A stretch of 64,000 nucleotides of DNA, taken from NCBI RefSeq assembly GCF_031180885.1, contig NZ_JAPSLK010000039.1, positions 1 to 64,000 of the forward strand. The letters are read 5' to 3'. Under the pieces are notes generated by a model. That model was not told where the DNA came from and did not search any database. It saw only the letters and a program-made list of their open reading frames with translations. Below are positions 49,503-53,651 of this stretch, piece after piece. The stretch's first letter is position 1. Each line of letters opens with the position of its first letter. A program made the translations under genes and the position numbers. The stretch is from Saccharothrix sp. Lineage in GTDB: Bacteria > Actinomycetota > Actinomycetes > Mycobacteriales > Pseudonocardiaceae.

Positions 49503-49575
49503 TGCCCCCGACGGGATTCGAACCCGTACTGTGACTCTTTTAAGGAGCCTGCCTCTTCCTTTGGGCTACGGGGGC
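49503..49575 (-). tRNA. tRNA with UAA anticodon and class I (short) variable loop
   Basis: 73 nt, perfect cloverleaf: 7-bp acceptor GCCCCCG/CGGGGGC with A73, D arm with one C-A mismatch and GG in the loop, anticodon stem GGCTC/GAGTC with loop CTTAAAA, 5-nt variable loop ACAGT, T arm ACGGG-TTCGAAT-CCCGT. CCA is not encoded. The anticodon is U-A-A, reading UUA (Leu). Bacterial tRNA-Leu normally has a long class II variable arm, so this is not an ordinary tRNA-Leu(UAA); its amino acid cannot be assigned from sequence. It lies 88 nt after the SagB-type gene on the same strand. Confidence 0.9.
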
Positions 49576-49662
49576 AGCGGCGAGCCTAAGCGGTTACGCA
49601 GCGTTCGTGGGGCTGGTTCGTCACAAGTCCCCCGCACGGCTCAATGCCAACCGCTATTGCGC

Positions 49663-50733
49663 TCATTCGGGTAATGGACCGAGCGCACTCATCCCGAGTA
49701 CTGCTTCGTGATAAGCGTCACACCCCAGTGCTTGTTCGACGAGTTCATCCCGCAATGCTGCGGTGAAGCCGATACCAAATCCCATTGCGGTAGCCACCAA
49801 ATACGCGGTTTGCGAGAGGTGACCCACATCCATTTGAACCACCCGGTACGCGCGAGATGTGTCATACCGCCACCGGGTCCGCTCCAACACCGCGGTGTAG
49901 GCGAGCACCACCGGAGCTTCACCCACCCAGCCCTGATCCCCCGCCGCCTCGGCCATCTCGGCCGGCGTCCAGCACACGCCCAGGGGCTCCAGCGCGTGCG
50001 CCAGGCCGTCGTAGTGGTGCCAGCCGGGGGCCAGGCCGTCCACGCCGCGCACGTGCGCGTAGATCTCCACCGGGTGCCGGCCGCCGCCGGACGGGCTGGT
50101 CTTGAACACCGTCCCGGTCCGCCCGATCCGCGACCGCACCGGCGACGGCGCGCCCAGCACCGCCAGCAGCTCGCCCAGCCGTTCCAGCGGCACCCGCCCC
50201 GGGCCGAAGTCGCGTGACGTGCGCCGGGACAGCAGCACGTCCATCAGCCCTTTCGATCCCCACGACGGGTCCCGCGGCAACCCGGGCAGCGGCACCACCG
50301 GGCCGCCGGTGCTGCGGAACGGCGCGGGCGGCGGGTCGCCCGCCATCTTCTCGTCCAGCAGGGCGTCGTGCTCGTCCGAAGCCTGGTAGGGGGCGTCGGC
50401 GAGGGTCCGGCTGGCGAAGTGGAAGTGCCGCGCCGACGCGCCCCACGCCCGCCACCCGGACAGCATCCGGCGCTCGGCCTCGTGCTCCGGCGACCCCTCC
50501 ACGACCAGCACGCCCGACTCGACCAGCTCGTCCAGCACCTTGCGCAGCGCGGTCCGGTCGGCCTCGCCGAGGGGCGCGAGCAGCTCGTCCACGTCGGTGA
50601 ACGCGGTGAACTTGCGGCACAGCAGCTCGGCGGTCTCGCTGATCGCGAACTGCCGGTGGTGGAGGTAGTCGTCCCACACCACGGTGCCGTCCTGGTAGAA
50701 CAGCGCCGCGTGCTCAGCGACCTTTACCCGCAC
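49663..50733 (-). CDS. SagB-type nitroreductase-fold flavin oxidoreductase
   Basis: 356 residues from GTG 50733. An N-terminal region (about 1-90) resembles the HTH/presentation part of SagB/ThcOx proteins; the FMN-binding domain (about 150-356) starts with SRRTSRDFGPGRVPLERLGE and has SPSGGGRHPVEIYAHV. SagB enzymes usually oxidise azolines made by a YcaO protein, but none is here. The gene overlaps the ATP-grasp gene by 20 nt. A TTA leucine codon lies three sense codons from the end (49672-49674). Its last 200 bases are less GC-rich than the rest. Followed by the UAA tRNA. Confidence 0.85.
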   Translation of the reverse strand: MRVKVAEHAALFYQDGTVVWDDYLHHRQFAISETAELLCRKFTAFTDVDELLAPLGEADRTALRKVLDELVESGVLVVEGSPEHEAERRMLSGWRAWGASARHFHFASRTLADAPYQASDEHDALLDEKMAGDPPPAPFRSTGGPVVPLPGLPRDPSWGSKGLMDVLLSRRTSRDFGPGRVPLERLGELLAVLGAPSPVRSRIGRTGTVFKTSPSGGGRHPVEIYAHVRGVDGLAPGWHHYDGLAHALEPLGVCWTPAEMAEAAGDQGWVGEAPVVLAYTAVLERTRWRYDTSRAYRVVQMDVGHLSQTAYLVATAMGFGIGFTAALRDELVEQALGCDAYHEAVLGMSALGPLPE

Positions 50734-51832
50734 CCATCAACTCCTTGAAACGCGCCGCCACCCACTCGTGCACGGCCTCGGACACCCGCTCGTCCTGCGC
50801 GCGGTGCTCGAACCACCGCCAGTCGCAGTTGACGTTGACCTCCAGGAACACGTGGTCGCCACCGGAGACGAGGAGGTCGAAGGCGGCGACCTGCAAGCGC
50901 CAGTGCCGCGCTAAGGCCAGCAGGCGGTCCGACAGGCGCGCCGGCACGTCCACCGGGGTCACGCGGACCGCTTCGGGGTCGACCCACAGCTGCGCCGGGT
51001 CCAGCTTGTCGACCTGGAACGCGAGGGTCTGCTCGCCCACGACGAACACGCGCAGCTCGGTCTCGGACGGCACGTACTCCTGCACGATGACCGGCGCGGA
51101 CTCGGGGACGTCGCCCGCGCGACTGGTCTCCAGCGGGCGCGGGAACAGGCCGTGCTGCATGCCCGGGCGGGGTTCGAGCAGGTGGCGGCCGGTGGTCTTG
51201 ACGATGCACCGCCCGCCGCCGGGCCGGGTGCGGCCGGGTCGGGTGGTCACCGCGGTGCGCGGGACGGTCAGGCCGAACGACGCCGCGTCGGACAGCTGGG
51301 TGAGCCGGTCCAGGTGGGCGGTGGCGCGGGCCGGGTTGACGTGCGCCCAGTCGCCGCGGGTGGCCAGCCAGTTGGCGACCGCGCCCCACTGGTCCACGGC
51401 GTAGGCGCCGGCCAGCGTGCCGGGTTCGACCTGGAGCGCGGAGAGTTCGAAGTGCCGGCGCCACACCAGCAGGGGCCGCAGCAGCCAGCGGTCCAGCTCC
51501 ACCAGGGGGGCGTCGGTGTAGACGGTGAACGGGAGGTCGACGCAGCGGTCGGCGTCGACGCGGGCCATGCGGATGCCGCGTTCGGCCAGCGCGATGGAGA
51601 GGGCGTTCATCTCCATGTCGGCGGCGCGGGCGAGGACCAGGACGCACGGCACGGGGCTGCCGTCGCCCTCGTCGACCATGCCGAGGCGGTGCACCTGCTC
51701 CTGGAAGTCCAGGTTCTTGGCGGGTGACCGGAAGATGTAGTCCTGACCCTGCAACAGCAGTGGGGTGGGCTTCACGGGCCGGACGGCCTCGGGTGGGGGA
51801 ACCAGGTCGCTCCCCCACCCGGAAGCGGACAT
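50714..51832 (-). CDS. ATP-grasp ligase, graspetide (MvdD/TgmB-like) type
   Basis: 372 residues from ATG 51832. The middle and C-terminal regions have the pattern of graspetide ligases: WAHVNPARATAHLDRLTQLS then GLTVPRTAVTT, CIVKTTGRHL, VIVQEYVPSETELRVFVVG and the Mg/ATP end VFLEVNVNCDWRWFE. Such enzymes activate side-chain carboxylates as acyl-phosphates to make ester or amide crosslinks in a peptide; ligation of an amino acid to a peptide end is an alternative. The peptide gene lies 3 nt upstream. One TTA codon (50912-50914, in LLALAR). Confidence 0.82.
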   Translation of the reverse strand: MSASGWGSDLVPPPEAVRPVKPTPLLLQGQDYIFRSPAKNLDFQEQVHRLGMVDEGDGSPVPCVLVLARAADMEMNALSIALAERGIRMARVDADRCVDLPFTVYTDAPLVELDRWLLRPLLVWRRHFELSALQVEPGTLAGAYAVDQWGAVANWLATRGDWAHVNPARATAHLDRLTQLSDAASFGLTVPRTAVTTRPGRTRPGGGRCIVKTTGRHLLEPRPGMQHGLFPRPLETSRAGDVPESAPVIVQEYVPSETELRVFVVGEQTLAFQVDKLDPAQLWVDPEAVRVTPVDVPARLSDRLLALARHWRLQVAAFDLLVSGGDHVFLEVNVNCDWRWFEHRAQDERVSEAVHEWVAARFKELMGAGKGR

Positions 51833-51835
51833 GAC

Positions 51836-51958
51836 TCAGTCGTCTTTCTTGCTGCGAAAAACCTTTCCGGCGGTGGCGTACTCGGCGGCGTACTCCGCCA
51901 GCGCACGGTCCTCGATCTCACCGCGGCGAAGCTGTGCGGCCAGCTCCTCAAGCGACAT
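51836..51958 (-). CDS. Putative ribosomal precursor peptide, 40 residues
   Basis: Start ATG 51958 is chosen because GAGAGG lies 9 nt upstream; longer starts give an implausible leader. The N-terminal half is amphipathic (MSLEELAAQLRRGEIEDRAL), suited to recognition by the enzymes; then a doubled AEYA motif (residues 21-28); then TAGKVFRSKKDD, which mixes Thr/Ser/Lys with terminal Asp residues, the residue types linked by ATP-grasp ligases. No cysteine, so SagB azoline chemistry is unlikely. Substrate status is inferred from gene order (3 nt before the ligase). Confidence 0.65.
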   Translation of the reverse strand: MSLEELAAQLRRGEIEDRALAEYAAEYATAGKVFRSKKDD

Positions 51959-51977
51959 CGCGGTCACCTCTCTCCCC

Positions 51978-52010
51978 ACTGGTGCGTCACACTTTTGGTG
52001 GCGCACCAGT
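51978..52010. promoter_or_regulatory. Inverted repeat upstream of the peptide gene
   Basis: ACTGGTGCG (51978-51986) and CGCACCAGT (52002-52010), perfect 9-bp arms separated by 15 nt, between the putative -35 and the start codon. It may be an operator or a 5'-UTR hairpin. Confidence 0.5.
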
Positions 52011-52036
52011 CGTAGTCTCGGGTTCACGTTACGCAA

Positions 52037-52042
52037 TGTCAA
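52037..52042 (-). promoter_or_regulatory. Putative -35 element of the peptide operon
   Basis: TTGACA on the minus strand at 52037-52042, in an unusually AT-rich stretch. A matching -10 is weak (GAGACT at 17-nt spacing, or TACGAC at 22). Confidence 0.35.
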
Positions 52043-52143: not shown

Positions 52144-53469
52144 TCAGCTCTTCGTGGCCCGGTCGAACTCCGCCTTCGGCTCGTGGATCTGCCCCAGTGC
52201 GACGACCTCACGACCCGAGAACAACGCCTGCGTCCAGTCGACGAACACTCGGAACTTGCGGTTCACCGTAGGCATGAACATGACGTGGTAGCTGCGGTGC
52301 ATGAACCAGGCGACAACACCCTTGAAACGCAGCCCGAACACGTCCGCAACACCCTTGTACAGGCCCAGGCCCGCGACGCTGCCGAGGTACTTGTGGAAGT
52401 AGTCCTTCGGCTTGCGGCCGCGCAGGGTGGCCACGATGTTCTTGGCCAGCAGCTTCGACTGCCGGATCGCGTGCTGCGCGTTGGGCACGCAGGTCGCGGT
52501 CGGGTCCTCCTCGGTGCGCGACAGGTCCGGCACCGCCGAGCAGTCGCCCGCCGCCCACACGCCGGGCAGGCCGACGACCTGCATGGCCGCGGTGCACTGC
52601 ACGCGACCGCGCGCGTCCAGCGGCAGGTCGGTGTTGCGCAGCATCGGGTTGGCCTTCATGCCGGCCGTCCAGATGATCGTGTCCGAGTCGAACTCGGTGC
52701 CGTCGTCGAGGACGACGTGGCCGTTCTCCATCGACTTGACCCGCGTGTCGAGGTAGCACTTGATGCCGCGCTTCTCCAGCTGCTGCACCGTGTAGACGCC
52801 GAGCTTGGCGCTCACCTCGGGCATGATCCGGTTGGTCGCCTCGACCAGGACCCAGTGCATGTCCTCCTGGCGCAGGCCCTCGTAGTAGCGCAGCGCGTAG
52901 CGGGCCATGTCCTCCAGCTCCGCCAGCGTCTCGATGCCCGCGAAGCCGCCGCCGATGACCACGAAGCTCAGCAGCCGCTTGCGCAGCTCCGGGTCGTTGG
53001 TGCTGGCGGCCTGGTCCAGCCGCGACAGCACGTGGTTGCGCAGGTAGATCGCCTCGCCGATGGTCTTCATGCCGATGCCGACCTCGGGCAGGCCCGGGAT
53101 GGGCAGGGTGCGCGAGATGGCGCCCAGCGCCGACACGAGGACGTCGTACTCGTACTCCTCGACGTGGCCGTCGGCCAGCTCGACCGTCACGGCCTTGCGG
53201 GCGTGCTCGATCTTGGTGGCGCGGCCGGTGACCACGTGGCAGCGCTTGAGGACCTTGCGCAGGGGCACGACGACGTGGCGCGGCTCGATCGAGCCCGCCG
53301 CCGCCTCGGGCAGGAACGGCTGGTAGGTCATGTGGGGCTGTGGGTCGATGACCGTGACCGACGCCTCACCGGAACGCAGCTTCTTCTGCAATCCCAGCGC
53401 GGTGTACATGCCGACGTACCCACCGCCGACAATCACGATCCGTGTGGGTTGCGACTTCACAGCAGCCAT
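52144..53469 (-). CDS. ndh: Type II NADH dehydrogenase
   Basis: 441 residues from ATG 53469. Single-subunit, non-proton-pumping NADH:menaquinone oxidoreductase on the membrane face. FAD motif IVIVGGGYVGMYTALGLQK at the N-terminus, second Rossmann motif FVVIGGGFAGIETLAELED, and TAGMKANPML / VWAAGDCSAVPDL for the FAD C-terminal site. C-terminal segments (GVVAWFMHRSYHVMFMPTVNRKFRVF) form the amphipathic membrane-binding part. The CxxC of two-domain relatives is absent. Matches Ndh of mycobacteria in size and motifs. Confidence 0.92.
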   Translation of the reverse strand: MAAVKSQPTRIVIVGGGYVGMYTALGLQKKLRSGEASVTVIDPQPHMTYQPFLPEAAAGSIEPRHVVVPLRKVLKRCHVVTGRATKIEHARKAVTVELADGHVEEYEYDVLVSALGAISRTLPIPGLPEVGIGMKTIGEAIYLRNHVLSRLDQAASTNDPELRKRLLSFVVIGGGFAGIETLAELEDMARYALRYYEGLRQEDMHWVLVEATNRIMPEVSAKLGVYTVQQLEKRGIKCYLDTRVKSMENGHVVLDDGTEFDSDTIIWTAGMKANPMLRNTDLPLDARGRVQCTAAMQVVGLPGVWAAGDCSAVPDLSRTEEDPTATCVPNAQHAIRQSKLLAKNIVATLRGRKPKDYFHKYLGSVAGLGLYKGVADVFGLRFKGVVAWFMHRSYHVMFMPTVNRKFRVFVDWTQALFSGREVVALGQIHEPKAEFDRATKS

Positions 53470-53651
53470 ACGCCTATGGTCGCACCGGAGGGTCGTTTCC
53501 GACGGGTCGTCAGGCCCCGTTGTGACCACGGTCGCCGGGTGATGAGCGACACTTGGCGCGCTGACCAGCGGCGGTGCCCCCGCCAAGGGCGAACCTGCTG
53601 AGAGGAACGATCCAGAAGCTCAGCTTCCGCTGAGTGGTCGAGACGCTTCTC

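Follow-up and report, generated by a model that had tools for sequence, protein, structure and literature searches.

A probable graspetide-like peptide-ligase unit with an optional SagB-type partner in Saccharothrix and related Pseudonocardiaceae

Which genes of a compact minus-strand locus of Saccharothrix sp. belong together, and what would they make? The locus lies in a stretch of 64,000 nucleotides (assembly GCF_031180885.1, contig NZ_JAPSLK010000039.1, positions 1 to 64,000), hereafter the window, and consists of a small peptide gene, an ATP-grasp ligase gene, a sagB-type gene and a tRNA gene. An earlier note, made from the sequence alone, had read all four as one operon lacking a YcaO cyclodehydratase, encoding either a new graspetide class with an oxidation step or a scaffold-peptide pathway in which the ligase adds amino acids to the peptide. 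The three protein-coding genes are listed below, with the evidence for each, including the ratio of nonsynonymous to synonymous polymorphism (pN/pS) and the flavin mononucleotide (FMN) family of the third.

51836-51958, minus strand: putative precursor peptide, 40 amino acids, ATG start, MSLEELAAQLRRGEIEDRALAEYAAEYATAGKVFRSKKDD; ribosome-binding site, pN/pS and conservation, with the C-terminal KDD kept
50714-51832, minus strand: graspetide-type ATP-grasp ligase, 372 amino acids; TIGR04187, profile and fold matches
49663-50733, minus strand: SagB/ThcOx-type FMN dehydrogenase, GTG start, accessory; TIGR03605 and ThcOx fold match

The peptide gene is followed by the ligase gene after a 3-nt gap, the ligase gene and sagB overlap by 20 nt, and the tRNA gene follows sagB after a gap of 87 nt. 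The four features, their strand and their order were thus as previously described, with the last distance corrected from 88 to 87 nt.

The ligase was compared with known families by sequence and by predicted fold. The match to TIGR04187 had an E-value of 4e-26, yet remained below the cut-off of this model. A profile of 32 relatives matched AMdnB (4e-36), MdnB, CdnC, PruB, MdnC and PsnB with E-values from 4e-36 to 5e-16, compared to 9e-6 for RimK and 8e-3 for LysX with the same profile. For the AlphaFold model (predicted local distance difference test, pLDDT, of 89), the 31 best matches in the PDB were all chains of MdnC, PsnB, CdnC, AMdnB, PruB or MdnB, the first being MdnC bound to the MdnA precursor, and RimK and ArgX ranked after the graspetide chains. 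Residues K212, E259, R261, D319, E331 and N333 were invariant in the 32 aligned relatives, a hand-chosen set, and E259-L-R261 aligned with the ELR of AMdnB, MdnB, CdnC and MdnC and with the DIR of PruB. Overall, profile and predicted fold place the ligase in the graspetide macrocyclase family, in agreement with the assignment first proposed for it.

The peptide open reading frame (ORF) is genuine and under purifying selection, as shown by a strong ribosome-binding site, a pooled pN/pS of 0.25 over 35 distinct 40-codon sequences (from the 48 forty-codon peptides out of 65) and its conservation. Among 67 distinct loci from named genomes (L031-L097), the peptide was present in 66, the exception being L097, which is truncated by the contig end; a conserved peptide beside the ligase, one of the checks suggested by the earlier note, was therefore found. 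In a larger set of 97 loci, which includes duplicates (76 are distinct), BLAST placed the peptide ahead of the ligase, in the same orientation, in 94 loci, and it was later also found in L070 and L082. The C-terminus reads KKDD in 95 and RKDD in one of these 97 loci, duplicates included, which corresponds to 36 distinct sequences, and a KDD end was observed in 66 of the 67 named-genome loci throughout Pseudonocardiaceae. One end-pattern search required KDD, and the set found by BLAST without that requirement agrees with it. K38 and D39 are identical in all 36 distinct peptides, and conserved Lys and Asp residues in the core of an adjacent precursor are a mark of graspetides. In another class, two distant loci that carry both ligase and SagB (the latter being cut by the contig end at one of them) encode peptides ending in KKDN and KKDS. 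The pattern [DE]Y-x(8-11)-[KR]KD[DNS] fitted all 12 peptides of a hand-chosen set; for L195 and L196, an inner Met was picked as the peptide start. The peptide is a plausible substrate of the ligase.

SagB scored above the cut-off of TIGR03605, and the best PDB match of its model (pLDDT 81) was ThcOx. Residues 1-95, modelled as strands followed by helices, look by eye like a peptide-binding RiPP recognition element (RRE), RiPP standing for ribosomally synthesized and post-translationally modified peptide. The gene was present in 22 of the 67 loci (Saccharothrix, Umezawaea, Actinosynnema, Solihabitans, Streptoalloteichus, Actinoalloteichus and Longimycelium) and missing from 45 (Lentzea, with one record labelled Nocardia, Kutzneria and Saccharopolyspora), so that the constancy of SagB beside the ligase, also put forward for checking, did not hold. 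In the Saccharothrix genome G058, sagB is decayed and recognizable at its two ends only. Nineteen genomes were chosen for a wider search (18 with the ligase, plus G359): 15 gave no SagB match at 1e-10, and the other four (three of genus g23 and one of g13) gave distant matches only, none at the ligase locus. The distances of ligase and SagB co-vary, with r of 0.97 over 20 loci. Since SagB is missing from most loci while the peptide is kept, peptide and ligase are the core of the system and SagB is optional. The three genes form a real unit, with SagB in some genera only. The absence of YcaO from it, as originally remarked, was also confirmed: none is encoded on the window contig, and three are found on other contigs of the same genome.

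The usual substrate of a SagB-type oxidase would be an azoline derived from Cys, Ser or Thr. The window peptide carries Ser36 and Thr29. Ser, Thr and Cys are all absent from the final 14 residues of seven of the 36 distinct peptides, and three of these seven come from SagB loci (three sequences in four loci, L068-L070 and L072, of Streptoalloteichus, Longimycelium and Actinoalloteichus). Because these three SagB-linked peptides lack such residues, the predicted oxidase cannot, judging from the encoded sequences, always act on a Cys/Ser/Thr azoline of the C-terminal region.

Separate observations were made on sagB and a relative. At L213 (G220 C2:98891-99913), a separate SagB relative (44 percent) has no ligase match within 14 kb, and the small ORF preceding it ends in VDPWGAPVEFDAA. 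In 16 of the 22 sagB loci, a TTA codon occurs at position 354 near the end of the gene (window 49663-49674), just upstream of the UUA-reading tRNA. As the flanking 3' DNA is conserved too, this codon may be part of a DNA element rather than of a bldA-type control.

The distribution of the unit was analyzed in 390 Pseudonocardiaceae genomes from 46 genera; five candidates per genome were scored in the family and phylum ligase searches, so that distant copies are minimum counts. At 1e-10, 134 of the 390 genomes gave a ligase match. At an E-value of 1.2e-60 or better, the ligase was found in 110 of the 111 genomes of 19 genera (the exception being G359) and in none of the 279 genomes of the 27 other genera. 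Distant homologues were detected in two g30 genomes, at 41 and 36 percent identity, and one g25 genome has an additional, distant copy at 34 percent. Ligase protein distances were correlated with those of ndh, the gene upstream of the unit, with r of 0.95 over 57 loci, and none of 2000 permutations gave as high a value; these 57 of 66 loci were those in which both hits were present without a stop. Fixation by genus and this correlation show that the unit is inherited vertically, with the chromosome. In wider searches at 1e-30, the ligase was found in at least 4 of 396 genomes of the phylum, the Saccharothrix genome included, in 9 of 199 genomes of g53, which we take to be Streptomyces, and in 2 of 39 genomes in the class of G415. 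At the nine g53 loci, two of which lie on contigs under 5 kb, no SagB was detected at 1e-5; L205 alone has a leader-like small ORF (28 codons, ...EFEDFMRQYEAS...), and none of the small ORFs of these nine loci ends in KKD.

On these grounds, we consider it reasonably probable that this vertically inherited unit encodes a graspetide-like RiPP system: the ligase would cross-link the Lys/Asp-rich C-terminus of the peptide, and SagB, where kept, would oxidize the product. The peptide would be made with a helical leader (MSLEELAAQLR...) guiding its binding, and the ligase would phosphorylate a side-chain carboxylate to an acyl phosphate, with which a Lys amine would then react to form an amide (lactam) cross-link within the C-terminal 15 residues, in the segment described by the pattern above. 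Where sagB is kept, its FMN domain would oxidize the product, by a chemistry that may not always be the usual azoline oxidation, and release could be left to housekeeping proteases.

Several observations weigh against this proposal. The NCBIfam graspetide models score the ligase below their cut-offs. Neither the graspetide leader motif Phhx(1,2)h nor a GG-type cleavage site, both typical but not universal, was seen by eye in the peptides, and no protease or exporter adjoins the genes in the window. Because the invariant K38 and D39 lie side by side, a direct link between them would be difficult, and a more distant partner or an outside amine is called for. Finally, at two g30 loci with ligase and SagB (L184 and L185), the peptides contain Cys and end in CKSCHGG and CGKGCH; these loci are a different branch of the same system.

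In a first alternative, the peptide is a scaffold: the ligase would attach an amino acid or amine from outside the peptide to the Asp region at its C-terminus, following the logic of LysX/ArgX with LysW or of the PEARL enzymes, SagB would oxidize the added residue, and a small molecule would be released. The strongest conservation is indeed at the extreme C-terminus, as expected of an extension site, no leader-cleaving protease adjoins the genes, the fold matches of the ligase include ArgX in complex with LysW, and an exporter of the major facilitator superfamily (MFS) follows SagB in two distant loci (one Cys-core g30 locus and the KKDN locus). PEARLs have also been proposed, in the available part of PMC10979984, to derive from ATP-grasp enzymes. 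However, the nearest solved relatives of the ligase, by sequence and by fold, are intramolecular macrocyclases, which weakens this alternative. The final position of the peptide is not constant, being D in Pseudonocardiaceae and N or S at the KKDN and KKDS loci of the other class, and N333 of the ligase motif FLEVN is invariant in the 32 aligned sequences, where PEARLs have a conserved His at the matching place (PMC10979984, same part). We regard the scaffold pathway, including the oxidation of the added residue, as unlikely. Of the two options first offered for this locus, the graspetide with an oxidation step is thus favoured over the amino-acid-adding scaffold.

A second alternative retains ribosomal synthesis and proposes that the end product is a cofactor-like or housekeeping small molecule, on the logic of pyrroloquinoline quinone (PQQ) or mycofactocin, and not a secreted peptide. 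This would suit a genus-fixed, vertically inherited unit with a nearly invariant peptide, and no transporter or immunity gene adjoins the genes in the window. It agrees poorly with the loss of SagB in many genera while the rest persists, with the 27 of 46 family genera that do without an orthologous ligase, with the patchy occurrence outside the family (2/39 and 9/199) and with the MFS exporter of the two distant loci. We therefore judge it quite unlikely. A similarly small chance is given to the speculation that the invariant Lys-Asp end of this core-genome peptide is converted, by the ligase and an optional non-azoline flavoenzyme, into a small molecule that acts in Pseudonocardiaceae like a cofactor or a signal.

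There remains the question of the tRNA, which had been described as odd and as the end of the unit. Two features flank the three genes.

49503-49575, minus strand: tRNA-Leu(UAA) with a short variable loop, bystander outside the unit; ARAGORN and Rfam
52144-53586, minus strand: ndh, type II NADH dehydrogenase-like flavoprotein, conserved upstream neighbour outside the unit; Pfam PF07992

The tRNA, called by ARAGORN and matching Rfam RF00005 with 53.9 bits, has a standard fold, the anticodon UAA and a variable loop of five bases. No other Leu(UAA) occurs among the 59 tRNAs detected in the genome. The Leu(CAA) and Leu(UAG) tRNAs of this genome also have short variable loops, the same tRNA pattern was found in 362 of the 390 family genomes, just 110 of them with the ligase, and of 296 genomes sampled from the phylum, 40 showed the short Leu(UAA) pattern. 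With other short Leu tRNAs in the genome and a pattern that recurs in the phylum, the view of this tRNA as odd was rejected.

The surroundings of the tRNA were then compared between loci with and without the cluster. The ndh gene is present in 66 of the 67 cluster loci. Among 35 ligase-less genomes, which were the first in the tRNA search output and not a random draw, ndh precedes the tRNA on the same strand in 26 (16/16 in g4, 6/6 in g10, 2/2 in g6, 2/2 in g7 and 0/9 in g5), with a gap of 85-1832 nt in the 12 loci measured. Of 66 cluster loci, 49 have a -10-like box (TAGGCT or a closely similar sequence) immediately 5' of the tRNA, as do 24 of the 26 ligase-less loci with ndh; none of 2904 background windows had one. 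Some results count against a simple ndh-tRNA story: no adjoining ndh was found in the nine g5 genomes (1.5-kb flanks for seven and 8-kb flanks for two), three g10 genomes have a gap of 621-1832 nt with other sequence in between, and the box is missing from 17 Saccharopolyspora cluster loci, from both g7 genomes and from seven of the nine g5 genomes. At the distant ligase-SagB loci L184 and L185, no such tRNA was detected within 13-16 kb. Since the tRNA is kept in ligase-less genomes, and beside ndh without the cluster, it is not part of the unit but a household bystander, and the cluster sits in the ndh-tRNA gap. The four-part make-up was consequently abandoned, and the tRNA as a pathway component was rejected on the co-occurrence searches and the ligase-less loci. 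A dedicated aminoacyl-tRNA donor working with peptide and ligase, which the closeness of the tRNA to the ligase could suggest (about 0.1-1.3 kb on its downstream side in 66 of 67 loci, the remaining one, L054, stopping at the contig end), is extremely improbable given the many tRNA-bearing genomes without a ligase, the ndh-tRNA order and the -10-like box found without the cluster, the tRNA-free surroundings of L184 and L185, and its standing as the sole Leu(UAA) found in the genome.

Additional observations concern tRNAs. A long bldA-type tRNA pattern, the one pattern tried, matched 4 of 4 g53 genomes and 0 of 7 family genomes; the short tRNA-Leu(UAA) is therefore probably the sole UUA reader of the genome. 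The D-loop of the window tRNA is one base shorter than in the copies at the compared loci; a few further genomes in the family-wide tRNA search (G002 and G074) have it equally short. Elsewhere in the same genome, C123:54586-55060 (L106) holds closely packed tRNA genes of unusual types, a short Leu(CAG) among them, in an arrangement that resembles a mobile-element tRNA array.

Among known systems, the window ligase resembles MdnB/MdnC, AMdnB, PsnB, CdnC and PruB in its ATP-grasp fold and ExR/DxR site, and differs from them by an identity of about 20 percent, a precursor without a GG site and a SagB partner in some genera. SagB shares with ThcOx, McbC and other SagB-type azoline oxidases the FMN nitroreductase fold and an N-terminal extension; unlike in SagB/YcaO azole pathways, there is no YcaO on the contig, and at four SagB loci the final 14 peptide residues include neither Ser nor Thr nor Cys. 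As in PEARL pathways of the ammosamide type, to the extent covered by the part of PMC10979984 consulted, a small peptide with a conserved C-terminus is combined with an ATP-driven acyl phosphate, here a predicted one; in contrast to them, the enzyme is a graspetide-type ATP-grasp ligase and not a LanB-like PEARL, and the tRNA is a bystander. The closest description is that of the ATP-grasp branch 6 loci in the in silico survey of Makarova et al. (2022, PMC8939145), which, in the sections available, have small precursors (clusters 367 and 1115) without GG and Phhx(1,2)h motifs and mostly a SagB-like nitroreductase. The present locus has the same make-up of small precursor, graspetide-class ATP-grasp and SagB-like enzyme and likewise lacks both motifs, a close likeness at the level of gene content and motifs. 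The terms "tRNA", "Saccharothrix", "Pseudonocardia" and "Saccharopolyspora" are absent from the main text of PMC8939145. Among the matches listed in literature searches on ATP-grasp and SagB, this paper alone describes the pair, and no experimental work was found. The claim that no such cluster had been described thus holds for the four-part version only, the combination of ATP-grasp, SagB and precursor being already present in these sections of PMC8939145. A further study, PMC13097080, reports 19 new graspetide groups in its available part, and "SagB" and "nitroreductase" are absent from its main text. If our proposal is true, graspetide-like maturation gains a SagB-type oxidation that cannot be of the azoline type in every case, in a RiPP-like unit retained by whole genera and not scattered; the locus is also a reminder that a tRNA gene conserved next to a cluster can be mistaken for a part of the pathway. 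Overall, the locus is best classed as an uncharacterized graspetide-like system in which SagB is optional and to which the tRNA does not belong.

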